Shown in pieces: positions 41,167-59,936 of a stretch of 64,000 bases of DNA. Each line of letters starts with the position of its first letter. Position 1 is the first letter of the stretch. Made by a program: the position numbers and the translations under genes. The notes under the pieces are model-generated. The model was not told where the DNA came from, made no database searches, and saw only the letters and a program-made list of their open reading frames with translations. This DNA is from Coniochaeta sp. PMI_546 (lineage: Eukaryota; Ascomycota; Sordariomycetes; Coniochaetales; Coniochaetaceae), in the NCBI GenBank assembly GCA_021432605.1, contig MU271144.1:2228606-2292605 (forward strand), in the 5' to 3' direction.

Positions 41167-43102
41167 CTAATGGGCATAGGTGACCATCCCGCCATCCTTC
41201 TCCGTTTCCAGCTTGGCAGCCGTGCTGCTGTTCCGCGCCTTCTCGTCCACCCCTTTCGTGGTGAAGGCCGCCGTGATGGCCACAGCACCAAACGCGATAG
41301 CGACCAGGTAGACAAGCTTGTACGCCTCAGAATTTGCCTCTTTCACGGCATACTGCACGGCGCTGATAGTCGCGTTGGTGATGCCCGGCACCTTACTGTA
41401 CGCCGCCGCCGTGTTGGCAGTCGCCGCCGTCAGGAGCGCCGACTCGGACCCGTTGAAGCCGGACGACTTGGCGGCGGACTCGACCCAGCCTGGCAGAACT
41501 TGGGTGTATCGGCTGCTCTGGATGGACGTGTAGATGGCCGTGGCGATGGCGCCGCCGATGAGGCGGAAGGTGCTGATCAGGCCCACTGCAACGCCGATGT
41601 CGGTTTGATCTTCGAGGTTGAGGGAGACGATGCCGAAGGACAAGGGCGAGGGGGGCAGGTTGACGGTCGAGACAAGGATGACTGTCGCGATGGCCTGGGC
41701 CTTTGAGTCGATGCCCACGGACGCCAGGGAGCCGATAAGGGCGGTCTGCAGGACCATGAAGGCGATCAGCTGCCAGCGCTCGTGCTTGATCCACGGCATG
41801 ACGCCGACGCAGTACCAGCCTGCGATGATGGTGCCGAAGGAGACGAGGTTTGCGTAGACGCCACGGATGATGGGCTTATCTTGGGGCACCCAGAGGAGGC
41901 CCGACTGCCGAGGCCAGATCCTTGGAACAAGTGTCAGCGACGCTCTCATGTATGGAAGTGGTGGTGTTTACTTACACGTTCATGCTGTAGTACAACATGC
42001 CGGCGACAAAGCAGACGACCAGGAAGGAGGTGAACTTGCGCCACTGCACAAACAAGTGCGGAGGCAAGATCGGATACTTCAGCGGCATGTATGCCTCCCA
42101 GAATCCCAACGCAATGAAACACACGAATCCGACTATCAGAGGACCGACGACCCAAGAGCTGTTCCAGGGGTGCATGCCGCCACCCCAGTTGAGCGCGAGC
42201 AGGACCAACAAACACCCAGCGGTGAATAGCACCAAGCCGACATAGTCAATCTCCTTGATCAGCTGCCACTTTGTCTTGTGGTCGTCCTCATGCTTGGTTT
42301 TGAACGTCGGCGGATGGTAGAAGAAAAACAGCATGACGGCCGTGACTGCCTCCCACGCAAAACACCACCAGTAACAGCTCCGCCAGCCGGGCTTCGTGTA
42401 GGCGATGAAGACGTAGCCGATGATGGGGGAGAAGGAGCTGAAGTGGTTGGCCAGGATCATGACGCCGAGAGTCTTGAAGCGGTCCTTGTTGGGGACCAGC
42501 TCCTGGGCGCACGCGAAGCACATCTCCTGGAAGCCGCCGCCGACGCCGAAGATGATGCCGCTGACGATCATCTGGTTGATGCTCTGGCCCGTCGCACCGA
42601 TGATGGCCCCTACTGCCGCGGCGCAGGCGCCGAAGAGGAGGAACCAGCGACGGCCTGCTATGTCGGAGAGGCGGCCGCCTATGGTAACGATCACGGAGGC
42701 GCCGAGATTCCAGCTGTGTGTGGGGGTTATATCAGCGGCCTGGCTTGGGATGGTGCGATGTGAGCGGATCGTAGCTTACCAGATGCTGATCCAGGGGTAG
42801 CGAGTGTCCGGGCCGAGATCAGCATTGATGTATGTCAAGACGGCGGCCGGCATCAGCAGCGTGAACAGGTAGCTCTCATACATGAGGATGAGAGCCTTTG
42901 ATATTCCGTTAGTCTATGTTACTTTGAGCTGGAAGAATGTGGGTTGACGCACCAACACTGCCATCTTCGTCTTGAAGGTGATCTTGCCATCTCCCTCCTG
43001 GGCCAGTGCCTTCTCGGTGTCGGAGGAGAAGTTCTGGTCGGTGGCTTCAATGGTGTCAACATTTGCGTCGTGACTCGACGACTTCTCGAGCTCGATTGTC
43101 AT
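41167..43102 (-). CDS. TRI12-type major facilitator transporter
   Basis: Four exons (42953-43102, 42780-42895, 41976-42713, 41167-41920) give 585 residues. The pattern is that of the fungal TRI12 MFS family with about 14 membrane segments. These proton-driven carriers export toxins or metabolites, or move siderophores and other small molecules. The N-terminal 50 residues are hydrophilic. The MFS loop motif between segments 2 and 3 is present as GGRLSDIAGRRWFLLFG. Other conserved parts are GVGGGFQEMCFACAQELVPNK and FHHPPTF-like FYHPPTFKTKHEDD. The C-terminal half has SFRLIGGAIATAIYTSI-like segments. It is probably in the plasma membrane. It shares a divergent promoter with an SDR gene and begins the candidate cluster. 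The substrate is unknown. Confidence 0.9.
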
Positions 43103-43850
43103 TGTTGCTCGCCTATGGGGCTGGTGTGAGCGGTGTCCGTTTGGTTGTCTAAGTCTAAAGCAGCTTCCAGCTGGATTACGAGGTACTGGATAGGACCGGC
43201 AGATGTAACCCAACTTGAAGCTTATCAACCCGAGGCCAAGGCTGAGGGACACATCTCGGCGATCATGTCGGCAGAGCCTTATAGTTATACCCAGTCTAGT
43301 TCCATATGGTATCCCCTCTGTAACCCACACCTACCCCGGATCTACAGCAGGCCATGGGTTGCGTACCCAGTTCCTCGTTTCCAAGCTCCTGGATCAGAAC
43401 CCCCCCTCTGGGAATTTCTCACTATTGAGGGGTGGGCTGCATTAGCGCATCCTGGGGAAGAGGATCGGCACGAGGTCTTGGAATGAGCAGAAAACGGATA
43501 TGTCTAATGAATCATTAGCTTCCTCAGCTAGCACGCTGATTCACAGCACCCGTCGGGAACCTTTTGGCTGCGGACACGAAAACCCCCGGCCCTGGGCTTG
43601 TGCAGTCGTACGTTCAAAATGAGGGGGAGTCACAGGAGGTCAAGTTTGTGCAATGGTCGGGAAAACAGACCCTTGGAAATCTGGCACTCCGTCCCATTGT
43701 ACGTTAACTTATCAGCAACTATGCGGACATGTTTCCAGCATCCATGTATTCGTACTCTGGGGAAGAGGCCAAGTTCTACATTCAACCCGACCTTGGCCAA
43801 TCTCATTGAAGTCTGAATAAGTCAACTTCCACCCAGTCTCATCAGCCGCC
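43103..43850. promoter_or_regulatory. divergent MFS/SDR promoter region
   Basis: A 748-base region between two divergent start codons. It carries the palindromic cluster element at 43504-43518. No other gene is seen. Confidence 0.6.
43504..43518 (+). promoter_or_regulatory. bZIP-like palindrome CTAATGAATCATTAG
   Basis: A 15-bp element symmetrical around its central A. The inner ATGAATCAT is one central base different from the Gcn4 site ATGACTCAT. Twelve bases, TGAATCATTAGC, recur in two other promoters of the same cluster. The protein that binds it is not known; the local bZIP is the natural candidate. Confidence 0.55.
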
Positions 43851-44708
43851 ATGTCCAACCAACAGTTCGCCACAAAGGTCATAGCCCTGACCGGCGGCGC
43901 TTCAGGCATAGGCCTGGCAACGTCCCATCTCCTCGCCAGCCGTGGTGCAACCCTCTCCATTGCCGATGCCAACGGTGCCGCTCTCGATGCCGCAAAGTCA
44001 GCGATAGTATCAGCCAACCCCAACACCAAGATTCTCACCACCGTGCTCGACGTCCGTGACGCTGCCGCCGTCGATGCGTGGATGGCCGAAACGGAGTCGA
44101 CCTTTGGCCGCGTCGACGGTGCGGCCAATCTTGCTGGCGTGATCGGACGGAGTATCGGACATGGTACTCTGGCAGAGCAGGATACGGCGGAATGGGACTT
44201 CATCATCGGTGTTAACCTCACTGGTGTTATGCACTGTCTTAAGGCGCAGTTGAACCGCGTGACGGATAATGGCAGTATTGTCTGTGCTAGCAGTATTGCC
44301 GGATTGCAAGGGCGGGCGAAGAACGGTGCTTACTCTGCCAGCAAGCATGGTGTACTTGGTTTGACGAGGAGTGCTGCGAAGGAGGTTGGTGTTCGCGGTG
44401 TTAGGGTCACTGCTGTTTGCCCGTGAGTTGATGCTTTATTCCGTGTGTGGACTGCGAGCAACTTGACTGACATTGGGAATAACAGGGGACGGATAGACAC
44501 ACCCATGGCTCGTAACGCCGCGCAAATCGCCGGCAAGGGAGACAAGGAACTTGGAGCGAAGCACGAGAAGAGCATGATTGACGAGGTGGCACTCAAGCGC
44601 AGTGGGAGAGCTGAAGAGGTTGCCCACCTGATCGCCTTCCTGCTCAGTGACGAGTCGACGTACATCTCAGGCAATGCAATCAGTATTGATGGGGGTTGGA
44701 ACTGTTAG
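43851..44708 (+). CDS. classical short-chain dehydrogenase/reductase
   Basis: Two exons (43851-44422 and 44486-44708) encode 264 residues, the normal classical SDR length. The cofactor motif TGxxxGIG is TGGASGIG at residues 14-21. The catalytic residues fit: Ser in SIVCASSIAG, and Tyr and Lys in YSASKHG, with NLAG earlier. The C-terminal INxDGGWNC-like ending is SIDGGWNC. The splice joins AVCP to GRIDTPM, the usual region after the active site. These enzymes oxidise alcohols or reduce carbonyls with NAD(H) or NADP(H). It is divergent from the MFS gene and shares its promoter element, suggesting common control. The substrate is unknown. Confidence 0.92.
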
Positions 44709-45566
44709 CCTATGTACGACCAAATCACTAAGTCCATATGCAGTCAGCCTGAGATTGTAGCCGTTTTTCAGTGTTGAGAAAGGAGGTTCAATGGCCAATA
44801 TAGACTCAAGTCTTTTATGTCGCCTCATTTCCACGTCGTGTTTTGGATGTCATCTGTACTCATCGCTCAGGACCCGACATTGGCGTCCAGTTCCTCAATT
44901 ATCCATCAAACTGAACTGCAAAAGCTTAGACGACATCGAAGTCACCTTTGTCTGCTACGTATTTAAACCTGTTTACTCAGAGTCACATGAATGGGTCTCT
45001 TCACTTAGAGTCACCTACCGTTCCGATATACGGGATGCTACCCAGCACGGGACAGGAGTCTCGAAAGAATACACTGAATGAGTTGAAGATGTATCAAATC
45101 GAAACCGGCGATATACAGCTTGTCGGACAAGCGTTAGACCTAACAGACATAGCTATAAAGTGTAGATACCCATACAGTTACTCAGGGGGTCAACCCTAAC
45201 CCTGACCCGTAGTTGAAATTTTTCACCGGGATCGGCTCGCACTCCTCGCAAACACCGCTGTCTTTGCCTCGATCTGACTCGTGCGGTTGCCACTGACCAG
45301 GGGCATAACTCTATCTCAGCCTTACAGGATCTCGGAATGCGCTCGCCGGGGTAAGATCTGCTCCATCAGGGTAGCTGTGAGCCGATCTGTCGGGACGGTC
45401 GGGACGACATTGGCCACATTGAGGCTGTTTTTTTTTTTTACACATAGAGATTGTGCGACGACGTCCTCTTCCTCGTCTACTCCATAATGATACACTGCCT
45501 GCAACGCACTTCAGTCTTCCTATATACCTTTAAACAACCAGCGATACCAACGAATACCCACCCGTA
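44709..45566. other. intergenic, AKR promoter side
   Basis: About 860 bases. It contains AACCCTAACCCTGACCC near 45192-45208, a T run at 45428-45439 and TATATACC at 45521-45528, some 40 bases upstream of the AKR start. The shared cluster element was not found here. Confidence 0.45.
45428..45439 (+). repeat. poly(T) homopolymer run
   Basis: Twelve consecutive T residues lie in the AKR gene promoter region. Such runs are common in fungal promoters and can exclude nucleosomes. Confidence 0.8.
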
Positions 45567-46565
45567 ATGAAGGACATGCGGCCGGCTCTCGTGCTCGGCA
45601 CTGGCCCCCTCACAGGACCAGATCCACAAGCTCAAGTCACGTCCCTGCTCACCGCGGCCACGGACCTTGATGTTGACCGGATCGATACCTCCCCCGTGCA
45701 CTCGGACCAGCAGGTCATCGGCGACTCGGAGCGCATATTAGGCCTTGACCAAGCAGCACAGAAAGGCTTCACCATTAACGCCAAGGTGGCGTTCAACACA
45801 GATGACAGGTGTCCCCTGAACCGTGGCCAGGTCTGGGAGAGTGTCAAGGGCAGTCTGCAGCGGTTGAATGTGGAGCAAGTCGACATACTCTACATCCATG
45901 CCCCCGCTTCTGAGACTTTGCTGGAACAACAAGCCGCTGCCATGGACGACTTGTACAGGCAAGGGAAATTCAGGAGAGTAAGCTCACCCTGACATAGCAA
46001 ACACAACCTCAGAGCAATGTAACTCACACCACCGTAGCTCGGCCTCGCCAACTTCTCCCTGATCATGCTTCAAGACTACCTCACCATCTGCCAACAGAAC
46101 AACTACGTCAAACCCACTGTCGTCGCGGTCATGTACAACCTCCTCTGGCGCTTCCCGGAGGCCAAACTCCTCCCCTTCTTCCGGCAGCACGGCATAGCCG
46201 TCATGGCCCAGAGCCCGCTGGCCGGCGGCCTTCTGACGGGTCGCTTCGCCCCCGAGCAGCTGCGCGGCACGAGGCTCGACACGGAGCGGTACAGGATGTA
46301 CAACAGGCCGTGCTTCCCCGCTGCGGCCGCGGATCTCGTGGCGCTGGTCTCGCCGCACGGCGTGAGCCCTGCCGAGGCGTCTTTGAGATGGCTGTGTTGG
46401 CATTCGAGGCTGGGGAGTGAGGACGGGGTGGTGCTGGGAGGCACGTCGGCGGAGCAGTTGCGGGAGAATGTGAGGGCTGTGGAGAAGGGCCCACTGCCGC
46501 AGGAGCTGGTGGATGGGATCGAGAGGATATGGGAGACTGTGCAGGACGCGGTCAGACGGAGGTGA
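45567..46565 (+). CDS. aldo/keto reductase with His in place of the catalytic Tyr
   Basis: Two exons (45567-45977 and 46038-46565) encode 312 residues, most like the aflatoxin-aldehyde reductase (AKR7) branch. The usual tetrad is Asp, Tyr, Lys and His. Asp is in RIDTSPVH, and the Tyr position five residues later is His. Lys is in INAKVAF and His in ILYIHAP. Further matches are LGLANFSLIMLQDYL, YNLLWR and the C-terminal GGTSAEQLRENV, which binds the cofactor. With Tyr replaced, normal reductase chemistry may be weak or altered. Both exons join in phase at GKFRR/LGLANFS. It sits within the candidate cluster but lacks the shared promoter element. Function beyond the family is not clear. Confidence 0.88.
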
Positions 46566-46697
46566 AAGGCGATATGAGTGTGGATTGGTACAGGGCAGGG
46601 AATCTTAGACGGAAGCCAAACTGTTAGACGGGGCTCGACCCTATAGAGTGATAGATATTTTGATACCTTATAGACACGAGACATGTAATAGACCACA

Positions 46698-47572
46698 TTA
46701 GAATAGCCTCTCTTCATTTATCACATCCTCCGGCCTCGGCATCTCGTTCTTCAACACCACCTCAGAGATCTTACAAGTCTCGATCGCTATCCTATACGCT
46801 ACTCCGAGCTGCTCTCTCGTTCCCCCGTTCCGGATCAACCCCCTCATATGCCACGCCACCTCGGCCGTGACATCCATCGGCACCAGGCTCGCAATGTTCA
46901 GCTGGCTGGTCGTGATAGCGTCCAAGATACTCACATCACTCTGATAATACCCGTAAATAGTCGTAACGACTAAGGTCCGCAGATCCGGCCAGTAGGCGTC
47001 CATGGCCTCCAGGAAGGGGTCCAGGTCCGCCCGGAAGATGTTGCGCATGTACGCCAGGCCACGCTCGTCCGTGTCTGCGGGCACGCGGATGTGCGACCTG
47101 ATCGAGGTCGTTTCGTTGGATTTCGGGGAGGGTATGGCAGTGATTAGAGAGCGGAAGGCGTTGATCACACGGGGGATGCCATAGATTATGCCGGTCTTGA
47201 GGAGTGCTTCTGTGGGGGGCGCGTGTAAGATAAGGAGGTGGCATGGTTGTATAGTGGTGCTCTTACAGACCTTTGATCCTACGGAGGACGGTCTTGTGGA
47301 AGTCTATGTCGTCTTTGTGGTCTCTGATGGCTGCGGTGAATATATCGGCAACATATTTTCCTTGGTTGCAGGCTGCGAAAGCACATGCCTAGCAAGTTGC
47401 CGTAGTTAGAGTAAAAGTTGATCTGATATTTGGTATTTCGTGTTTGAGATCTTCGGATACCCACAGCTATGCAGTACCATGTATGTTCGATATCAGTTCC
47501 TGTAGAGTCTGCGGCAAGTGAATTGATGAAGGTGATTGCACGTCGGTTCATGTCCTCGTCATCGGGACCCAT
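46698..47572 (-). CDS. AhpD-like/carboxymuconolactone decarboxylase-fold protein
   Basis: Three exons (47465-47572, 47271-47388, 46698-47209) encode 245 residues. The fold is that of the CMD/AhpD helical family, whose members decarboxylate gamma-carboxymuconolactone or act as peroxide-related redox proteins. It has a repeated pattern of helices: HTWYCIAACAFAACNQ, then GYYQSDVSILDAITTSQLNIASLVPMD is split by small residues, and ends with AIETCKISEVVLKNE. The CxxC catalytic pair of true AhpD is not apparent; the only close pairs are ACAFAAC. All three joins are in phase. It is convergent with the AKR gene and 234 bases from the end of the first AtuA-like gene. Many fungal clusters carry such proteins, where their role is mostly unknown. 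Confidence 0.8.
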
Positions 47573-47806
47573 GTCTGATCAAGGTATGAGGATGGAAGAG
47601 GTTGTCGCTAAATTTCACGGTGCGTACGGTATAGGAGGTAAGGTATGCTAACGTCATGGGTGAAGAAATGTATAGTATAGGGTTGTATGGATAGGATTCC
47701 TTTTTCACGGGTAATAATATATGTCAGTGCAAGCGGAGAAAGGAAACGGATATCCGGGCCCCCTTGAATTGCATCAAGGAAGGAATCCGACCGTGTTATC
47801 AGGCTC

Positions 47807-49807
47807 TCAGATCCTCCCATTTTCGAGAAATCTTCGCGGAATAGGGACATATTTTGCCCTGAGATACTCGCACAGATTCTTAGCCAGGGTATCGAGCTTT
47901 GAGCCCGAGTTATACCCTCTGTCAAGGTGATTCTTCAGCAAAAAGTGCACAGCACGAATGTTGCCCATCTCGAACCTGTCAATCCTGCCGTCCGAGTACT
48001 CTTCCGGGCCAAGCAGTTCCTTCACTTTCTCAATGGTCAGGAAGCTTCGTAGCCAGTCCCACTGTTCCTGGTCCGGGACGAAAAACCCAACGTTTGCATC
48101 AGATGCCTTGTCGCCGGAGCGGCCTAAGGCGATGTAGCCGAGAGGAGCCTCGACAGTCTCGCCGAAGTGTTCTAAGGGTGACGGGTTTCTCGTGTTGTAG
48201 GACTCTTGCGGTCCATATTCCCTCATTATTGGCGGTAACGGAATACTGATTGGGCCGTGTTCCCCAAAGAGGAGATGTACGCGATGATTGCATGCCGACT
48301 GCGGTATCAAGGTGGGATAGTACTCATAGTAGCTTTTGGCCGTTGATTGCCGCAGGTCATTCGGTCTCGAGACGCCCTGGTTCTGAATTAGCGCATGCCA
48401 GACGCCTTCAAAGCTGGTTGTCGATAGAGACTCACCGGACAAGATTGTAAGACAGTCTCGTAAAGCTTGCGTGCAAACCCGTCAGGCAAATTGGGATCAA
48501 ACAGTGCTGCGTCTCTTGCCTGCGCAAATATCCTGAAATCAACCGTAGCAATCTCTTGATTTCTCGGGTTCGCTGGACTCGTTCCGTGAACGTGGAACTT
48601 GAGCATCGAAAACTTGCTGATCAAATCCTCTCCGATGGCATACCTTGCCTGCTCTTCCATCCACTGACACTTCTCTTCTATATCTAAGCCAACTAGATAG
48701 AAGTGCCACTCAGCTTGGAACCCTCCGTCGGCCGTGACCCCACATCGCGTTGTCGGTGGAGGTGGCAAACCTCTTATACCGGAGACGTGCACGCGATTTT
48801 CCGCAGTCTCGTTCAGCGAGATATTGTGCAGATCTGCTACCACATCAGAGTTGAAGTAGAGCGGACCGGATATCTCGTACACGAGCTGCGAGGTCACTGT
48901 CTCGGCGTTTACGACGCCATTGGTTTCCTTTTCCTTCGTGATGTCGAACTCTCCGTTGTGGTGTACTTCAGCAATGGGAAATCCGAGATTGAGATGCCTC
49001 TTTGCCTTCATCAAGTCCTTAAAGCGGCTGTAGTAGCCACCAGTTACGAAGGCAGAGCATTCAATGATGTGGCCGGCAATAAGAGCACCCGCGATTTCAT
49101 CCAGTTGTTGGGCGTCCCAACCGTGCCACCATGCCGCAACGCCAATGGTAGGAGCAGCGTCAGAGACACTAGATTTTCTTGTCAGCTTCAGCAACTTCCA
49201 AATCACTTTGGCTGCAGACCTACCGCCCACAGATGACAATATCCGCGCCCTGTCGCAGGGCCTCCGCGATGCCCAAGCTGCCGAGATACGCTTGAGCACA
49301 GAGCGGCTCAAAGCCCCATTCCTGCAACGTCTTGCCATCGGCGACACTTTTAAAATTCGCACCCTTGGCAGCCATTTCCATGAACGGAACAGTCACGTCA
49401 TCTCCCTCCACCCATGCCACCTTCAGATCGAGCCCGGCCTTGTCCACAATGTCTTTGCAGATCTCAGCCAGAAGCTCAGTATCGCTCGCACCGGCATTAA
49501 CGGCCAGCTTCGCGCCGTTCTCAGCGAGTTTGTAGATTGCCGGTTCGAAACACTGGAGAAAGGTACTCGCAAACTGGCCAGTCTTTCTGCGCTCCTCAAG
49601 TGGGAAGTCTTTGGTGTAGGACCCAAGTTTGTCCCTACGTGCTCTACCCGCGCCATAGCCGGTCATCACGTTTTCAGACAACCAGTCTCCGACAATGGCG
49701 TCAACGTCTGGATCGCTGGCAAGACGTGTTATCGCAGCGACGCGATCTGTGAAGCCGCCCGACGCACCGCCGATGCGTACTGGTCGACGGACATTGTTGG
49801 CCGTCAT
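47807..49807 (-). CDS. AtuA-family (DUF1446) protein, first paralogue
   Basis: Three exons (49224-49807, 48436-49168, 47807-48376) encode 628 residues. The N-terminal AtuA/DUF1446 domain runs to about residue 450. Visible conserved parts are RIGGASGGFTDR, AIVGDWLSE, KLAVNAGASD, GDDVT, GADIVICGRVSDAAP, WWHGW, HIIECSAFVTGGYYS and RIFAQARD. The C-terminal AtuA-like ferredoxin-fold domain has PLGYIALGRSGDKASDANVGFFV and IRAVHFLLKNHLDRGYN. In Pseudomonas, AtuA lies in the acyclic terpene utilisation operon but its reaction is unknown. The fungal form fuses both domains. Its intron positions differ from those of the second paralogue. The promoter carries only a weak match to the shared element. No signal peptide is seen. 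Confidence 0.88.
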
Positions 49808-50275
49808 GTTGGAGGCTTACTTAGTCGTAGATGGGAGCCTGGGTGGTTGCGGCTCAAGCCAAAGTTGCACTGTCCAACGATCAAGCCGCAATATAAATCC
49901 AAGACATCACGTTCTGGAAACCGGCTGTCTCCTAGATTTCGCATCGACGTCTTACACTGGAGGAACGCATTTGTACTAGCGTGTCCGTCGGCTGAGGAGC
50001 CCTACTGTGTAGGCTCGGGTGAGAGGAGTGGATCCCGCATCCCGAGGGTGCCCCGGATATACCAAGCCGCTTAGCTCAAGCTTCAGAGGGGACCCCTCCT
50101 GCGTGAAGCGAATAGGATCTGCTCGTAGGCACATGGTGGTTTTTGCGCTGTAGACCTAGTATATGTTACTCTTGCTACCCAGTCATTAGTGCGAGAAGAT
50201 CCAATGACATACGGACAGGGTTTGTCGTTGCAGTGTCTGCAGATTGCGATACTGTGTGGATGACGCAAGGCTGTC
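49808..50275. promoter_or_regulatory. promoter region of first AtuA-like gene
   Basis: A 468-base region upstream of the first AtuA-like gene and downstream of the bZIP. It has TCATTAG at 50183-50189 and TAGCGTGTCC at 49977-49986; the latter 10-mer also occurs in the second AtuA promoter at 53683-53692. Confidence 0.5.
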
Positions 50276-51451
50276 TCACTCAAGCAGTGCATCCTGATCC
50301 ATGAGTTCACTAATCTCTGGGAAGCGAGTCCGAAAAGTTTTGGCGACAGTCCAGTACTTCAGCTGGCGGATGTGCTCCTCGTATACGGGGTTGATGGTGA
50401 TGTCTTCCGTGTCAGTCGCACCAGGAGTCCGGATGAGAATGTGACTTGGATCGTAGGGCCAGCTGACGCAGAAGGACGAGCTGTATGTTGCTGCAAAGTC
50501 ATCCAGGGTGATGCCAGGGTGTGCGACTAGGTACTCCCTAACTCGTGGCCTGTTTATCGTTATCAGCGCTCTGTAGAGGAATCAAAATAGAATGCATAGA
50601 TGAATCACTATTTACCAGGGAATACGATCAATCCAAGCGGCGTGTGGTGTGACTATCTGACAGGGTGTTGGTCGAAGCCAGACTGGCATCAGGTCCCAAC
50701 TTTTCTTATCTTGGAGGACCATCCACTGTGGTAGTCTGAGTCAGTAGCTGGGCGGAGTCATTAGACTAGCAAGCCAGTGATCTCGACAAACCTTGAGCAA
50801 CGTCGACATGATATAGAAGACAGCAACTTGTTTTGGAAGCGTGTTGATCTCGAGGTAGCTCCTGATGATATCTCCGACAACATTACTGATGTCGTCGTTG
50901 GATCGTTTATCCTTGTCTAACAATGACACGAGATTGGGTTGCGCCGCATATGCAGCGACCTTTTCTGATGCAGTCTCCGAGGCCGAGAGGCGCTCTTCTC
51001 TCTTGGAGTTGAGAAAGCCTTGCAATATTTGATCAGCGAGGCATGTGGGAGGAGCATTATTAGGGGACATTTCCCATGGATTTGGCTCTGAAGCAACGAC
51101 GGATCCGTCCGCCATGTGGTCCTGGGCCCCAGTGAAGCCTATGAGACTGAGCTGGAGCGCCGCGTTCTGAGTTCTCAAGTGAGAGTTCTCAGCCTCGAGG
51201 ACGCAGATGCGAGAGTCAATGATGGCGGCCTCTCGCGATCTCTCTTCAAGTGCTTGGGTCAGGAAGGCAACCTGCTCGGTGAGATTGGCAATGGTCCACT
51301 TGGTCCTCTCCCGCATAGCCTGTTGCGACTTGCGATCACGAGCTCTCTTCCGCTGGAGTTCGATATCTTTGACAGCTATGTTGCCAAATGAGTCCTCTGA
51401 AGAGCCCGGGGACGTGGCAGAGGCCACCGACGGCCCTGAAGCTGGCGGCAT
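50276..51451 (-). CDS. bZIP transcription factor with DUF3425-type C-terminus
   Basis: Three exons (50792-51451, 50616-50725, 50276-50549) encode 347 residues. The basic region and zipper start near residue 35: RKRARDRKSQQAMRERTK, followed by LTEQVAFLTQAL, with leucine-type heptads continuing to about residue 100. The basic region has Asp (RDRKSQQAMR) where classical bZIPs carry the invariant Asn. The C-terminal half matches the DUF3425 type that accompanies many fungal bZIPs: WDLMPVWLRPTPCQIVTPHAAWIDRIPWP, split here by the second intron, then VREYLVAHPGITLDDFAATYSSSFCVSWP. It is nuclear by inference. It lies in the middle of the cluster and is divergent from the ABM-type gene. It is a likely cluster-specific regulator, not proven. 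Confidence 0.87.
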
Positions 51452-52559
51452 TCTGATGATGTTGATGATGACTAGTATTCTTGTCCGAGCTGCAATGATC
51501 TTCTTTCTCCCCTTTTCAACGACCAAACATACCTCTCAGTGGATGGGGTGGTATCGACACGCGCTTAGCTAAAGGTGGAGCTGGGGTAGAGTGAGGGGAT
51601 GTCGCTGTTGGATTGGAAGTATCCTCTGGGGAACCTGGGGTAGCCTTGGCGCGCTCTAGTGCTCCATACCCTCCTTCATCTAGGACGACAGAGTCAACAG
51701 AATCACGTCTCCAGTGGTTCTGCGCCGATCAAAAGGCGTTCAAGCATGTCCGCCCTATCCGCTGATGCAGATCTCGCTTGAGGTTGGTGAGCTCAGGAGT
51801 TCGCCGCGCCCACCATTAGTCTCTAAGCAAGTGGTCGGCCTCGCTATGCTCTGTGCCGTGTGAGCCGCCTGAGCCCAGAGCTGCAAAGATGTGCTGGACA
51901 AGATCATGGTGGCCCGGTTGTGGTTTCCCGAAAGTCCGGTCAGTGGGTTCAAAGTGTGCTGTTCTGAGACCCCTGTACCCCGCATTTGCCAGGGAGGTCT
52001 GGCTTGGCGTTTTCGCGGGGAAGCCTGACGACGCTAATGATTCAGTACCTCACCTTTTCGCAACTCTCATGAGCTCGACTCGTCGCGTCAGTTTGCCAGC
52101 ACAAAGCTCTTTGACTTATTTCTGACAATTTCAAGTCACCTGCCGTGCTGAAATGGCCTTCTGCAGCCTGATACAGTGGCGGGGCGTATGATAGGAAGCA
52201 ATGGAAGATGTGCTGTATCCGTGCGTGCCTAGATAGCGCGGTGTTGATTCCAGTATAGGAGGCTCGTCCTCGGCCCGGAGTTAGCAACGCGACCGTCTCG
52301 ACCGCATATGTACTGTACAGGACTGCGATATGGAGTAATAGTCCTGGCTGTTGAAGAATGTATTTGCGGAAGACTTAGGCAGGATATCCGTATCCTCACC
52401 CAGGTCTCCAGCCCCACTCAGCGCTGTTGAACATGGATCTCTACGACAGGGCAACGTGCAAATCCCCTTTGCTCAGTTTTCTCGACTTCGTGTCTTGACT
52501 TTCTATCTTGGATGTGACTTGTCTCAGTACGGATTTACCTCCAGATAACCTAAACAGCC
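51452..52559. promoter_or_regulatory. divergent bZIP/ABM promoter region
   Basis: A 1.1 kb region between divergent starts. It holds the shared cluster element on the minus strand at 52031-52044. Open frames inside have no domains. Confidence 0.55.
52031..52044 (-). promoter_or_regulatory. cluster element TGAATCATTAGCGT (minus strand)
   Basis: All 14 bases are identical to the element upstream of the second AtuA-like gene, and 12 are shared with the MFS/SDR palindrome. It lies about 580 bases upstream of the bZIP start and 515 upstream of the ABM-type start. The core TGAATCA is bZIP-like. Confidence 0.55.
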
Positions 52560-53346
52560 ATGCCGAACAGAGTCGTCTTCTGCCAACTTGTCACAAAGAG
52601 CAAGGAGGTGCGCGATGTGGTAAGCCTCATCTCCTAATTCAGATTGTACAGCATGGGAATCGAGGCTAACGTACAAACAGTTCATCAAGAAACTGGCGAA
52701 AGCTGGAGAGGATGCCGAGAAGAATGAACCCGGAACGTTGAAATATGCTTGCTTTGTGCCTGTCGACGAGTCGGATGAGACAACCCTCTATGTCATAGAG
52801 GAGTGAGTTTTGGCAATATCTTCGTCATTGAGCTGTGATTTCTAATGCTCGGCAAGGTACACCAATGACGAGGCCTTTGACACGCACATGGCATTGCCCG
52901 ATGTGCAAGACATGGTCAAGTGGCTGGGCACAGGAGAGGTCCTCAGCGGAGACATGAAGGTCAAGATGAATCTCACCTACATCGATGACTTCTACTTCAC
53001 ACGGCCCGAGCTCAAAAGCGCCACGAACCCGTACGTTGCTGTCGCAGAGCTGGAGTACAAGCCCGGCGCTGTTCCTCAGACGATACCTTACTGGAAGGCC
53101 GTGGTCGAGGAGGGACGGAACAACGAACCCGGCACTCTGATGTATGGTATTGCCAAGGATCCCGAGGATGAGAACATGCTGTACGCCCTAGAGGTTTACG
53201 AGAGCAAGGACTACCTGTATGACGTCCATGTCAAGAGCAACGCAATCCAGGAGAGCATCAAGAACACCAAGCATCTACGGAACAACCTCACGCACCACTT
53301 CCTAAAGCTGGCTGGAGGGTTTTTGGTTAAGGGTATTGCCTCATAA
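52560..53346 (+). CDS. tandem ABM-like (dimeric alpha/beta-barrel) protein
   Basis: Three exons (52560-52619, 52681-52802, 52857-53346) encode 223 residues. It has two copies of the antibiotic biosynthesis monooxygenase-like fold. The first copy is about residues 1-105: RVVFCQLVTKSKEVRDVF, then GTLKYACFVPVDE, TLYVIEEYTNDEAFDTHM. The second is about 115-205: NPYVAVAELEY, GTLMYGIAKDPEDENMLYALEVYESKDYLYDVHVKSNAI. Each repeat has the EPGTL core and the E-x-Y element followed by a His-containing helix. Family members oxygenate quinol-like substrates, bind haem or have no known activity. All joins are in phase. It is divergent from the bZIP and shares its promoter element. A true monooxygenase role is not shown. 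Confidence 0.86.
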
Positions 53347-53993
53347 TAGTAGAGCCATACTCCATAGAGAATCATGCTTCATAGAACTGTATCTAAATAT
53401 TAAGGATACTTGACATTATTGTGCTACCAATATCCAACAAGGCAGAGCAACATTTCCAATTTGCTGGCTTCATTAGGGGACTAGTATGTACCTTAAGGCT
53501 CATCACTCCCGACCCCGTCTCAAATAGGGGTTCCAGGTCAAAGTGAACACGAGTCAGGGAATTGTAGTCCACATTACCTTCGAGTTCAAGCCCATACTAG
53601 TCCGGACAGCACATGGCGGGGTTACCAGTGGCCATACAGGCACGATAGGTGATAAGGAGGGAAAGGGGTCTTGATGAATCATTAGCGTGTCCAGCTCCGG
53701 AGCTGCTCCTAGACCTATCAAGAGTTCCGTCCCAGAGTCCCATCACGCAGGTCTAAGTGCTGAGCAGCGACTCTTTGGATGAGTTATCTGAGTGATGAGG
53801 GTCCTTAGGGGCCAAGATGGAGATGTATGTCCGAGTATATGTCAGCCATAATCCAGGGACTCACTGAGTATTTGAACTCTTCCATCATCCTTCACCGGTG
53901 TGTTATTCTACAGGACAAGACCCATCCATCACTCTCTCGAATTTCTGCCGTAGATATCCCCCTCTCTACTTCACATCGTCCTAGTAACACACA
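53347..53993. promoter_or_regulatory. promoter region of second AtuA-like gene
   Basis: A 647-base tandem region between the ABM-type gene and the second AtuA-like gene. It carries the shared cluster element at 53675-53688. Confidence 0.55.
53675..53688 (+). promoter_or_regulatory. cluster element TGAATCATTAGCGT
   Basis: All 14 bases are identical to the minus-strand copy at 52031-52044, and 12 match the MFS/SDR palindrome. It is preceded by GA, giving ATGAATCAT, a Gcn4-like pseudo-palindrome. It lies about 310 bases upstream of the second AtuA-like start. Confidence 0.55.
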
Positions 53994-56154
53994 ATGGGTT
54001 CCATTGGAGATGCGCCTAACGGCCTTAACGGCCAGCCCAAGCGAGGGATCAGGATCGCTGGATGCTCAGGAGGTGAGATATGCCCCCAACTCTCGCATTA
54101 CTGGCGCATCATTAACCATACCTTTCACTACAGGTGTCTACGACCGCAAACGAGCAATCCACGACATGGCCAAGAATGAGGACGTGGATGTCATCACAGG
54201 CGACTGGATGTCCGAATGCAACATGACTCTAAGAGGTTCCGACAAGCGAGACCGTCTCGCTCAAAAGTCCATGACTTCGGGCTCAACTGTGGTTGCAAAG
54301 GGTTACGAGCCATATTTCCTCGACGAGCTGGATCCCGCCATCCCCTGGCTGGCCAAGAAGGGCACCAAGGTTGCTGTCAACGCCGGAGCTAGTGATGTTC
54401 ACGGTCTGGCGGCAGCCGTCAAGGAGCTCATCAAGAAGCACGGCGTAGACTTGAAGGTCGGTGTTGTCGATGGTGACGACGTGACAGATGTTGTTCTCGA
54501 TCTGTACAAGAAGGGTGAGCACGAACATGGCCTGTCGCAAGTGAATCCGCAGCGGAGCATACTGACGTAGACTCAGGCGAACCGTTTCACAACCTCCCGG
54601 CCAACAAGCCAATCCAGGAATGGGGCTACGATCCCATCTGCGCGCAGTGCTACCTCGGCGGCACGGGTATCGCAGCTTGCTTCCAGGGCGGGGCCGATAT
54701 CGTGCTGTGCGGCCGCGTGGCCGACGCCTCGGTGACCGTTGGCGCAGCCATGTGGTGGCACGGTTGGACGCGCGACAACCTCACAGAACTTGCCAGCGCC
54801 CTGATGATCGGTCACATCATCGAGTGCAGCACATACGCCACTGGTGGATACTACTCGGGCTTCAAGTCGCTGGCCCCCCACGACACCGACATGGGCTACC
54901 CCATCGCCGAGATCGACCACAAGGGCGACGCCGTGATCACCATGGAGAAGGGTCGTGACGGAGTCGTAAACACTGCGACGGTCGCCAGCCAGCTTCTGTA
55001 CGAGATCCAGGGCCCGCTGTACTACAACAGCGACGTCACCGCCTCCATTGAGGACATCGTCATCAAGGAGATTGGCCCGAATGCCGTCCACGTGTCTGGT
55101 ACAAAAGGCCTGCCCCCACCGGCGACGACCAAAGGTACGACTTGAGATCTCTTCCGTTACACTGCCGGAGTATGACGCGGGCCACAGCATGCTTGACAGC
55201 TGGCGTCTCAGTCGTACTTCGGCTTCCCCCCCAGAATACAGACCCAATCACTAACACCTGTCTTTCACAGTCGGTATCACCGCCAAGGGCGGCTACCAAG
55301 CCGAGTTCCACTTCTACCTCACCGGCCTCGACATCGAAGAGAAAGCCGCGATGGTCGAGCGGCAGACCAAGGCCCTGATGGGCGAGCACCTGACCCGCTT
55401 CTCCTGCCTGCGCTTCATGATCGCCGGCGCGGTGCCCTCCGACCCCCAGTCCCAGGACGAGGCGACCGTCGACCTCCGCATCTTCGCCCAGACGCGGGAC
55501 GCCGAGATCCTCTCGGGCAACAACTTCGTCGACTCCGACCGCGGTTCCTTCGCGCGCTTCTGCATCGAGAATCTCCTCCAGGGGTACCCGGGTAGCACCA
55601 TGGCGCCCGACATGCGCACCGCCATCGGCCGCCCCTTCTTCGAGTACTGGGTCTCCCTCCTGCCCCAGGAATTCGTCAGGGAGCAGGCCTACCTGCCCGA
55701 CGGCACGGTGCTCGACATCCCCTCCCCGACCGTGGTGCAGACCTACCCGCGCGAGCAGCCTAGCTACGACCCGGTCTCGCCCGCGGACCTGTCGTCCTTC
55801 GGCCCCACCACGCGGGCGCCGCTGGGCTACGTGGTCCTGGGCAGGTCGGGCGACAAGAGCTCCAACTGCAACCTGGGCTTGTTCGTGCGCCACGACGACG
55901 AGTGGGAGTGGTTGAGGTCTCTGCTGACCATCGGCAAGATCCGCCAGTTGCTCGGCAAGGACGACAAGGGGAAGCAGATTGACCGCTGCGAGTTCCCGAA
56001 TATCAGGGCCGTGCACTTCTTGCTGAAGGATCACCTGGACCGCGGGTTCAACTCGACGAGCAGCTTTGACTCGCTGGGCAAGAACCTGTGCGAGTATATC
56101 CGGAGCAAGCATGTGGATATTCCGAATAGGTTTCTTGAGAGGGGTCGTATTTAG
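53994..56154 (+). CDS. AtuA-family (DUF1446) protein, second paralogue
   Basis: Four exons (53994-54072, 54134-54514, 54577-55134, 55271-56154) encode 633 residues. It has the same two-domain plan as the first paralogue: AtuA/DUF1446 to about residue 455, then the AtuA-like ferredoxin-fold domain. Visible parts are RIAGCSGGVYDRKRAI, VITGDWMSE, KVAVNAGASD, GDDVTD, GADIVLCGRVADAS, WWHGW, HIIECSTYATGGYYS, RIFAQTRD, PLGYVVLGRSGDKSS and IRAVHFLLKDHLDRGFN. A short N-terminal extension (MGSIGDAPNGLNGQPK) is extra. Alignment by eye suggests about half of the residues are shared. None of its three intron positions matches the two of the first paralogue. No targeting signal is seen. The reaction is unknown. 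Confidence 0.9.
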
Positions 56155-57567: not shown

Positions 57568-58702
57568 TCAATGTCCGACCTTCGTCTCTTCCACTGCCGG
57601 TTCGGACATCTCGAGGTCCTGTTGACTGTCATCCCCGCTTCGGGCTGCCTTCTTGGCCGCCTTCTTCGCTGCCTTGTCGGCCTTCTTGGTCTGTTTTGCT
57701 GCAGCACTACGGGCTGCCATCTGAGGGAAGAGGATTCCGGGTGGTAACCATGCCAGGAGATTTACCGCGATAGCGACCATGCTGGGGGGCGAGTCAGTAT
57801 TGGATATTGCGTGGATATGACAGGGTGCGATGTGACTTACAAGCCCTCCAGGACGATGAACGACGGCTCATCCTGCATGATATGGTTGCCCCATCCGCCT
57901 GCCATCTCAGCGACACTAGGTTTGCTGTTAGGACCTTCAACAACAGTATATGTGAGTCACCCAATACTTACCGATAGATGCACCGTATCAGGATCAGGAA
58001 GTAAGCGCCACTGACGCCGTAAATAAAGAGACGGAACCTCTTGTTATTCCACAGCGCTACCGCCTCCGGGTCGGCCTCGGGGCTTCTGATCCACTTCCTC
58101 ACGCGCAGACTGTAGTCCACCGCCGAGAGACCGAAGAAGGCCAAGACGACGACCTGCAGCACGATTCCGGCGATGATGGCCCGGTTGCCGTTCTGCAGCA
58201 GCTTGGGGTTGGGAGCCTTGGACGCTCCGCCCGCACTAGCGGCGATGGCACCGCCGATGGCCTGGACGAGCAGGCAGGAGACGTCGCCGGGCACGAAGAT
58301 CCAGGGGTACAGGGTCGGGCGGATACGCGAGAGGGCCGGGTTGAGGGACAGACAGACGTGTTTGAGGGTCAGGTAGATGGAGATGCAGATGAGCGTGGGC
58401 CCCAGGATGATGGCGACAATCTGGGTCTGGAAGGCCTCGGAGTTCCAGGGGTTGTCGTGGAGGGGCACTCGGGCTGCGTAGCCGGCGAGCTCGAGGGCGC
58501 AGCCGGCGGTTATGAATGCCATGTAGCTCCATGTTCTCTTCTTCACTCCGACGGCAAAAGTGACCACCATGGCGACTCCAAAGGCGGCCGCGAAGAAGAT
58601 GTTGATCCCCTTGTTGGGGTAGTAGCCCTGGGTTGTCTTTGATACCGGACATGCTGGGCTGACCTCCTTGCAGACGTAGTAGGGGCGCGTCGAGTTAGAC
58701 AT
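57568..58702 (-). CDS. RTA1-like membrane protein
   Basis: Three exons (57972-58702, 57841-57915, 57568-57781) encode 339 residues. The RTA1 family has seven membrane segments; members include yeast Rsb1 (sphingoid long-chain base export) and Rta1 (7-aminocholesterol resistance). The N-terminus (YYVCKEVSPACPVSKTTQGYYPNKG) is split only by loops, followed by membrane segments including INIFFAAAFGVAMVVTFAVG, AFITAGCALELAGYAARV, IVAIILGPTLICISIYLTL and FVPGDVSCLLVQAIGGAI. The family signatures ELAGY, LxPxLxxAxIY-like and DVxSxxxQxxGGG-like are present. The short second exon carries the GGWGNHIMQDEPSFIVLEG loop. A Lys/Ala-rich cytosolic tail of about 50 residues ends the protein. It probably lies in the plasma membrane. 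Its substrate is unknown. Confidence 0.92.
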
Positions 58703-59936
58703 GGCGGCGCAAAGTATCGCGATCGCGATCGCGGTCAACTATACCGGTCCTGTCGCAAAACTCCAAGCAAAAAGCGGCTCAGAGCCAGAACAGAAAATGG
58801 AAGATGTCGAGTCTTCACCCTCAAAAGTAGAAACGAAAAAGAAGCCGCAGAACGAGAAAGAGAATGTGTAAGCAGTCGCTTCCCACGTGGGAAAGACAAC
58901 ATTTGGTTCTGTAGAGGCAACATTATTCCGGTCACTCACTTGATGGATGTGGTCCAGCGGACCTAGGGCCAGGAAAGGAAATACGATCGCAAGGTGGGCA
59001 TCGGCAAGAGGGCCAAGAGTCCAAGACGGACCATAAGAATGACTGGTATCCACTCCTCCCAACGTTCTGGGCTCTGGCTCTGGGGAAGGAATTGGCGACG
59101 TTTACTCGAAGGGGAAACGCATACGAGTGTCGCATATAATATCCGCATCCTCCAAAGATCCTTTCATTGCGTATCGGGTACGAAGCGCAATATCACTTGC
59201 TGGCATCTTGGCAAGGACTGCTTCGGCTGCTCGGAGAGATCTAGACTTGATCTGTGCCCGAGAGCTACGGGATATTGGAAGCCTGGGAGGAAACCCTGCG
59301 AGAATGGTGCCATAACTCCCAGCGGGAGTGCCATGCACCAGGCGCGCGGGATGCACATCTCGGAACCAGACCGACCCGAGAAAAGCTTCCTTACGATGAT
59401 ATGTAACATTGGCAGCCTTAGCGGCTAAGGCAGATGACTAAACTTCAGGACCGGGTCGATTGAACCCTCCGAATGTGACATTGAAAATTTGATGCCCAAA
59501 ACACCGGGACGGCTTCATTTGCCAGATCGCACCCGACCGTGTTATTTGTCAATCTGTCCTATTTTAGTGTCCAGTCCTGCCTTTGGTCGGTCCCAAGCCA
59601 TGTCATGCACGTCATTACGCGACTTGTGAGATGTTTTCCTGTGAATGGAGAAACCGCCTGAGACGAAAGACCAGCAGGTTGTCAAGGCTGCACCATAGCA
59701 GATGGGTACAAATAGAAGAACCATAGCTAGAGCTCACAACGAGCTCAACTCCTGCCAATTTTCCGGGAGAAGAAATGAGCATGATTCCGCAGTTACAGGC
59801 AGGTGCAAGTCTGACGACTGTCGCTGATATACCTCTCTATGCCGCCCGCTATTCACTTGGATATGCTAAATCGAACCATCATTGATCATGACTGTGTACA
59901 AGCGAAGCCTCAACTACCAAACGCTGCTCGCTGCTC
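58703..59936. other. intergenic region, no gene seen
   Basis: About 1.2 kb upstream of the RTA1-like gene and downstream of the SGNH hydrolase gene. Open frames near 58994-59428 lack domains. A GC-rich stretch with a weak tRNA-like look at 59412-59465 was rejected. Confidence 0.4.

Follow-up and report, generated by a model that had tools for sequence, protein, structure and literature searches.

The Pfam AtuA family is named after the atu cluster of Pseudomonas, whose ATU route proceeds through a geranyl-CoA carboxylase and a hydratase (PMC4097962). Another report calls the ThnQS lyase of anaerobic naphthalene degradation AtuA-like, describes it as two gene products, and states that the C–C bond it cuts is at a carbon bearing a tertiary hydroxyl (PMC12016498). 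The citramalate lyase CmlAB, with solved structures (PDB 9erq, 9evf), also consists of two separate proteins, CmlA and CmlB. In fungi, AtuA/DUF1446 has been interpreted as serving terpene uptake, transport or detoxification, according to one paper (PMC12148953). The open-access literature searched, as far as it was consulted, yielded no characterised fungal AtuA/DUF1446 enzyme or similar cluster, nor any mention of PF07287 as a term.

The window analysed here is a 64,000-nucleotide stretch of the genome of Coniochaeta sp. PMI_546, a root-dwelling fungus. Its AtuA genes have the AtuA domain in common with the Pseudomonas atu cluster, but the scan of the cluster and of the chosen flanking ORFs revealed neither a geranyl-CoA carboxylase nor the accompanying hydratase.

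Organization of the gene cluster

The window contains a run of eight complete genes, whose spliced models (GT-AG introns) extend from the stop codon of an MFS gene to that of ATUA2, exactly positions 41167–56154; the sequence-only reading had placed eight adjacent genes there, and the models bear this out. The TRI12-type MFS transporter (41167–43102, minus strand; 585 aa, 4 exons; PF06609, 201 bits) is divergent from a short-chain dehydrogenase (SDR; 43851–44708, plus strand; 264 aa, 2 exons; PF13561, 186 bits), which is followed by an AKR7-like aldo-keto reductase (AKR; 45567–46565, plus strand; 312 aa, 2 exons; PF00248, 146 bits) and a CMD/AhpD-like protein (46698–47572, minus strand; 245 aa, 3 exons). 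ATUA1 (47807–49807, minus strand; 630 aa, 3 exons) and ATUA2 (53994–56154, plus strand; 633 aa, 4 exons) each encode an AtuA domain fused to an AtuA_ferredoxin domain (PF23544). Between them lie a bZIP-type transcription factor with DUF3425 (50276–51451, minus strand; 347 aa, 3 exons; PF11905, 84 bits), whose basic region was recognised by eye rather than by a separate bZIP Pfam match, and a tandem ABM-domain protein (52560–53346, plus strand; 223 aa, 3 exons; PF03992, 72 bits against a cut-off of 23.1, in two stretches).

Seven of the eight family labels proposed earlier exceed the Pfam curated cut-offs. The exception is the CMD label, which is a hint only because its PF02627 score is below the cut-off (20.0 bits vs 23). 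This protein also scores 21 bits against the PcaC model (cut-off 155.7), its best solved CMD match by sequence (E 0.041) ranks below chance-looking fusion-tag matches, and its third exon, modelled alone, gives a poor structure (pLDDT 44). The SDR has levodione reductase as its best solved match (1iy8, E 5.2e-53), and the AKR has AKR7A2, an aflatoxin B1 aldehyde reductase (2c91, E 3.9e-40), with a His at the position of a Tyr in the aligned AKR7A2.

At the proposed borders, the Pfam scan finds Adaptin_N (putative AP-3 beta) and Nuf2 genes on the left and, on the right, a putatively secreted protein without a Pfam match, followed by RTA1 and GDSL genes. The predicted absence of backbone genes holds for the ORFs scanned, with no Pfam match to a PKS, NRPS, terpene cyclase or prenyltransferase among the eight models, two border ORFs and 20 flank ORFs. 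The models and Pfam matches show what defines a fungal metabolic cluster, namely metabolic genes side by side with their own regulator and transporter. A genome search found at least six AtuA loci and at least two ABM loci, yet two AtuA genes and one ABM gene lie within about 8.4 kb at the cluster, so their grouping goes beyond chance.

The two AtuA proteins

ATUA1 and ATUA2 match PF07287 over nearly its whole length, with 537 and 542 bits against a cut-off of 22.8 (profile positions 1–437 and 1–435 of 437, respectively). The AtuA/DUF1446 family is large: of 7996 candidates scored, 2167 proteins reach E 0.001 or better, and the named relatives among the best 120 of these 2167 are fungi. In a 221-row tree, from which proteins shorter than 540 aa, ABM rows, P0055 and P0201 were left out and in which four fusions were trimmed, ATUA1 forms its own clade and ATUA2 falls in a separate one. 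A recent tandem duplication is ruled out as the origin of the pair, since the two proteins are 50% identical and belong to separate clades. With regard to possible horizontal transfer, a quick tree of 37 picked rows, covering the ATUA2 clade and outgroups, places a Dothideomycete protein (P0013) and a Eurotiomycete protein (P0015) among Sordariomycetes, in a 24-row group with 99% SH-aLRT support; monophyly of the Sordariomycetes is, however, not rejected in this tree (p-AU 0.17). Some residues invariant in the bacterial alignment (75 of 80 rows, excluding five outside 420–700 aa) are changed here: a Lys is M276 in ATUA2, another Lys is R336 in ATUA1, and a Pro is Ser in both (S302/S305).

By sequence, ATUA2 alone has no relative among solved structures (best E 0.33). 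The predicted structure of its orthologue P0001, which is 96% identical to it, adopts the CmlA fold in its large part (9erq, 9evf) at 14% identity. In sequence, the resemblance to CmlA is weak (profile E 0.018, domain E 0.51); the motifs GR..D, EC and YE align. The C-terminal domain of P0001 matches CmlB (9evf_B) with a Foldseek probability of 0.99 but an E-value of 0.03, and the families differ, PF23544 in the fungal protein and DUF4387 in CmlB. The fungal proteins are also fused, whereas CmlA and CmlB are separate. The likeness to ThnQS is one of description, and ThnQS acts on a CoA thioester, whereas the scan of the window cluster turned up no CoA enzyme. On the strength of the predicted structure, AtuA is better read as a putative lyase fold, which does not itself show the reaction, than as a marker of acyclic terpene use.

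Other AtuA loci in bacteria and in the same genome

At E 1e-4, the window ABM, CMD-like and MFS proteins have no match in any of 80 bacterial AtuA loci, the AKR is matched in two and the SDR in nine. The best bacterial relative, L022, is a single case in which a tandem-ABM membrane protein lies near AtuA with another gene between them. In a further bacterial relative, L026, AtuA adjoins a carboxyltransferase, a biotin carboxylase and an enoyl-CoA hydratase; a carboxyltransferase occurs in 17 of the 80 loci (including L026, the source of the query) and a biotin carboxylase in three.

A second AtuA locus of Coniochaeta sp. PMI_546, C7:19000-28900, likewise encodes AtuA fused to AtuA_ferredoxin (36% identical to both ATUA1 and ATUA2) and has a TRI12-type gene nearby. 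Unlike the window cluster, it has an AMP-ligase, a MaoC hydratase and an ECH protein beside it, and it is thus regarded as a CoA-type route.

A shared promoter word

Three of the six cluster promoter segments contain a rare bZIP-like word, TGAATCATTAGC. First, it occurs on the plus strand in the segment that separates MFS from the divergently oriented SDR gene, where it starts at 43508 and overlaps an inverted repeat, CTAATGA-A-TCATTAG, the two together occupying 43504–43519. Second, it lies on the minus strand in the segment shared by bZIP and ABM, which also diverge (52033–52044). Third, it is found on the plus strand at 53675–53686, with its first base 319 bp upstream of the ATUA2 start. 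The segments before AKR, the CMD-like gene and ATUA1 lack it.

The word was first spotted by eye and tested afterwards; to limit the resulting bias, a shared word of whatever sequence was counted in the shuffle test. Shared words arose in 2 of 1000 shuffles at 11 bases, 25 of 1000 at 10 bases and 298 of 1000 at 9 bases, so the result is strong for long words only. The 11-base form shows no excess genome-wide (15 vs 14 for the reversed control) and, with up to two mismatches, no enrichment in the window (15 vs 12.4 expected). Six other copies of TGAATCATTAGC exist in the genome. Two of them, L103 and L105, fall within long stop-to-stop ORFs (966 and 506 aa), and another two, L104 and L106, within short ones. 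The eight genes are probably switched on together by their own regulator.

Conservation in other fungi

Linkage in other fungi was assessed from protein searches with ATUA2, ABM and ATUA1. In Verticillium albo-atrum and Fusarium albosuccineum the orthologues of ATUA1 and ATUA2 lie a short distance apart, and in Coniochaeta 2T2.1 and Rhizodiscina they share a contig. Conservation of the pair is partial, because among the nine assemblies listing both it shares a contig in four and is on different contigs in five. Three other fungi have ATUA1 fused to an SDR, and the window SDR is 57–63% identical to the SDR halves of such fusions. Together with the shared promoter word, the AtuA linkage and the ATUA1–SDR fusions support the view that the eight genes, or some of them at least, make up a unit, whereas the separation of the AtuA pair in five assemblies counts against it.

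Proposed function and alternatives

The chances are about even that this is a backbone-free fungal metabolic cluster for the breakdown or detoxification of an oxygenated small molecule. Breakdown is favoured over synthesis because the two central enzymes resemble a bacterial C–C-cutting enzyme. The TRI12-type pump would lower the toxic load, the SDR and AKR would interconvert carbonyl and alcohol groups, and the ABM and CMD-like proteins would perform oxygenation, isomerisation or binding. ATUA1 and ATUA2 may each act on a carboxylic acid with a tertiary hydroxyl and cut the C–C bond next to that group, in a retro-aldol manner like CmlAB and ThnQS, and the resulting oxo acids and acetate-like pieces would enter central metabolism. 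Binding of the cluster bZIP to TGAATCATTAGC would activate the gene pairs MFS/SDR and bZIP/ABM as well as ATUA2.

The cluster might instead tailor a product that is exported by the pump and has its backbone assembled elsewhere. Biosynthetic clusters often contain TRI12, SDR, AKR, ABM and DUF3425-bZIP genes, which counts for this explanation, as do the dedicated regulator and the shared promoter word. It is nevertheless rather unlikely: the ORFs scanned include no backbone gene, two lyase-fold proteins would fit cleavage better than assembly, and the levodione and aflatoxin B1 aldehyde reductase matches do not favour biosynthesis. It is similarly doubtful that only ATUA1, ATUA2, SDR and ABM cooperate and that MFS, AKR and the CMD-like gene are chance neighbours. 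The separation of the AtuA pair in five of nine assemblies, the abundance of TRI12 and SDR genes genome-wide (51 and 54 match rows, each exon counting on its own) and the lack of the word before AKR and the CMD-like gene all suit such a loose neighbourhood, but the MFS/SDR promoter has the word, and the Adaptin_N and Nuf2 genes delimit the run on the left. These explanations overlap, and their likelihoods need not sum to one. It is improbable that the cluster is a fungal ATU-type route for acyclic terpenes resembling citronellol or geraniol: despite the strong Pfam AtuA scores and the CoA-type partners of AtuA at L026 and other bacterial loci, the eight models and 22 border and flank ORFs include no CoA carboxylase, no enoyl-CoA hydratase, no acyl-CoA dehydrogenase and no CoA ligase, the CoA-type partners in this genome adjoin a different AtuA on contig C7, and the Pfam name derives from one bacterial pathway and says nothing on substrate.

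The catabolic or detoxifying route of the sequence-only reading stays plausible but unproven, while its tie to acyclic terpenes is not supported. More speculatively, and with little confidence, fungi may possess a large family of fused CmlAB/ThnQS-type C–C lyases that act without biotin carboxylation; the two members present here, which belong to different clades, might then work with the levodione-reductase-like SDR and the tandem ABM protein, under the control of a dedicated bZIP, to open the ring of an alicyclic or norisoprenoid plant compound, the last step being a retro-aldol cleavage at the carbon that bears a tertiary hydroxyl.

Linking AtuA to a solved lyase fold replaces a misleading label with a testable reaction. 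The cluster and its promoter word together provide a genetic system for finding the substrate, and the locus illustrates the kind of pathway that cluster searches built on backbone genes would overlook.

Gene content of the cluster

Coniochaeta sp. PMI_546, whose isolation source is given as the interior of healthy poplar roots (PMC6757388), has a 33.5 Mb genome. Its window (G000:C2:2228606-2292605) contains eight complete genes at 41167–56154, each a spliced model, which bears out the eight adjacent genes of the sequence-only reading: TRI12-type MFS transporter, SDR, AKR, CMD-like protein, ATUA1, bZIP (DUF3425), ABM and ATUA2. Its family labels largely hold, with seven of eight passing Pfam cut-offs (the bZIP through its DUF3425 part only), but the CMD-like label falls under its cut-off in the cluster protein scan. 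The cluster is also backbone-free as proposed, no backbone enzyme being matched among the eight cluster models and the 22 border and flank ORFs scanned. The Pfam scan identifies a Nuf2 gene and an adaptin-type gene on the left, the latter the putative AP-3 beta border, and on the right a protein with no Pfam match followed by RTA1 and GDSL genes. The RTA1-like membrane protein gene, close to the right border at 57971–58738, might be an additional cluster member.

Relationship and co-location of the AtuA genes

A genome search recovers at least six AtuA loci and at least two ABM loci; two AtuA genes and one ABM gene fall inside ~8.4 kb of the window. ATUA1 and ATUA2 share 50% identity and, in a FastTree phylogeny of 221 rows rooted on the contig C7 paralogue, belong to separate clades of 36 and 50 rows, respectively, with support of 100 each; a recent tandem copy is therefore ruled out. 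P0013 (Rhizodiscina) and P0015 (Exophiala viscosa), proteins from other classes, are placed among Sordariomycetes in the ATUA2 tree; horizontal transfer is possible, and Sordariomycetes as a single clade is not rejected. AtuA is also joined to other domains (TauD, peptidase M28 or cyclase, by precomputed Pfam labels) within the single chains of P0011, P0055 and P0238; these would be gene-model errors or else point to other neighbours.

Co-location in other fungi was read from the contigs and locus tags of protein-search matches, using for each protein cluster the longest contig, whose assignment to named species is inferred. Both AtuA clades are represented in nine assemblies among the best 120 clusters, and the check on co-location divides: the orthologues share one contig in four assemblies and lie on separate contigs in five. 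The four are Coniochaeta 2T2.1, where the 2.30-Mb contig also carries ABM; Verticillium albo-atrum, with locus tags ACHAQA_006213 and ACHAQA_006223; Fusarium albosuccineum, on a 59,888-base contig; and Rhizodiscina lignyota, only loosely informative because its contig is as large as 4.06 Mb. The five are Niveomyces insectorum, Neonectria ditissima, Patellaria atrata, Sporothrix curviconia, whose ATUA2 row sits on a side branch, and Fusarium zealandicum, whose contigs of 16 and 29 kb are too short to settle linkage. Sporothrix schenckii (both proteins, but in two strains) and short Verticillium pieces excluded from the tree are outside the nine. The ABM search yields 17 clusters among 173 candidates. 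Cosmosporella has ABM and ATUA1 on one contig, their locus numbers differing by 70 (seven genes should the numbering run in tens), Sodiomyces alkalinus has ABM and ATUA2 on one 2.5-Mb contig, and Coniochaeta ligniaria has ABM, with neither AtuA orthologue named among the matches listed.

ATUA1 is followed by SDR in a single chain in P0158, P0165 and P0201. The SDR portions of these chains share 63, 61 and 57% identity with the window SDR, versus at most 54, 53 and 51% over best pieces with its closest relatives elsewhere in the genome, themselves 50 and 47% identical to the window SDR by one program and 44 and 48% by another. These fusions may be gene-model errors spanning neighbouring genes; true fusion or error alike, the predicted chains indicate that the ATUA1 and SDR genes adjoin in those three cases. 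A loose neighbourhood, one of two main rivals to the catabolic or detoxifying reading, is rather unlikely.

A shared promoter word

The word TGAATCATTAGC occurs at 43508 between the divergent MFS and SDR genes, at 52033 (minus strand) between the divergent bZIP and ABM genes, and at 53675 ahead of ATUA2. It is the sole 12-base word common to at least three of the six promoter segments, and is not present ahead of AKR, CMD-like or ATUA1. Such sharing arises in 1 of 1000 dinucleotide shuffles at 12 bases, and in 2, 25 and 298 at 11, 10 and 9 bases. Genome-wide there are nine copies versus one of a reversed control word; the 11-base form shows no excess over its own reversed control (15 versus 14) and, with up to two mismatches, no enrichment in the window (15 versus 12.4 expected). 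Its TGAATCA core, which matches the AP-1 form TGANTCA, sits at 43504 within CTAATGAATCATTAG, whose inverted arms flank a single base. We infer that the cluster bZIP is the natural candidate binder. Of the six further copies, long stop-to-stop ORFs hold two and short ones another two, and one comes just after a TRI12-like gene (locus L107, position 3016; G000:C18:167315).

Candidate role of the cluster

The Pseudomonas acyclic terpene utilisation route employs geranyl-CoA carboxylase and a hydratase (PMC4097962). Unlike that route, the cluster and the border and flank ORFs scanned yielded neither enzyme, and the earlier tie to acyclic terpenes is not supported. Among solved structures, the SDR finds its best match in levodione reductase (E 5.2e-53, against 4.5e-36 for the runner-up) and the AKR in aflatoxin B1 aldehyde reductase (E 3.9e-40). 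The AKR (45567–46565) has His in place of the Tyr in the D-T-x-x-x-Y motif of aligned AKR7A2, the catalytic tyrosine, and its activity may be altered. Catabolism or detoxification ranks first, with about an even chance of being correct; this part of the sequence-only reading remains plausible. A reasonable guess at the substrate, no more, would be a ring ketone or an oxygenated compound of that kind, cut after oxidation. Biosynthetic tailoring, the other main rival, we consider doubtful.

A second AtuA of this genome, on C7, adjoins AMP-ligase, MaoC and ECH genes, CoA-type partners, and this locus is a CoA-type set. Its segments (L011, G000:C7:19000-28900; L017, C7:10000-19000) hold a TRI12-type transporter, ECH, MaoC hydratase, AtuA and AMP-ligase, <30 kb from a contig end with telomere-like repeats. 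Elsewhere on C7 (L014:4583-5865; G000:C7:2438k), adjacent frames match CmlA at E 5.2e-43 and CmlB/DUF4387 at E 9.3e-21; they represent a eukaryotic relative of citramalate lyase, perhaps as one fused gene. In Sphaerisporangium (L022, 5930-6976 and 8007-9812), a membrane protein with tandem ABM domains is encoded close to the top-scoring bacterial AtuA, with a regulator-like gene, GntR-like by eye, in between.

Fungal backbone-free catabolic clusters are a known kind; in the open-access literature searched for fungal AtuA/DUF1446 clusters, we did not encounter this gene set. A lyase reading of AtuA already exists for bacteria, and the new step is to carry it over to the fungal fused AtuA family and to this cluster.
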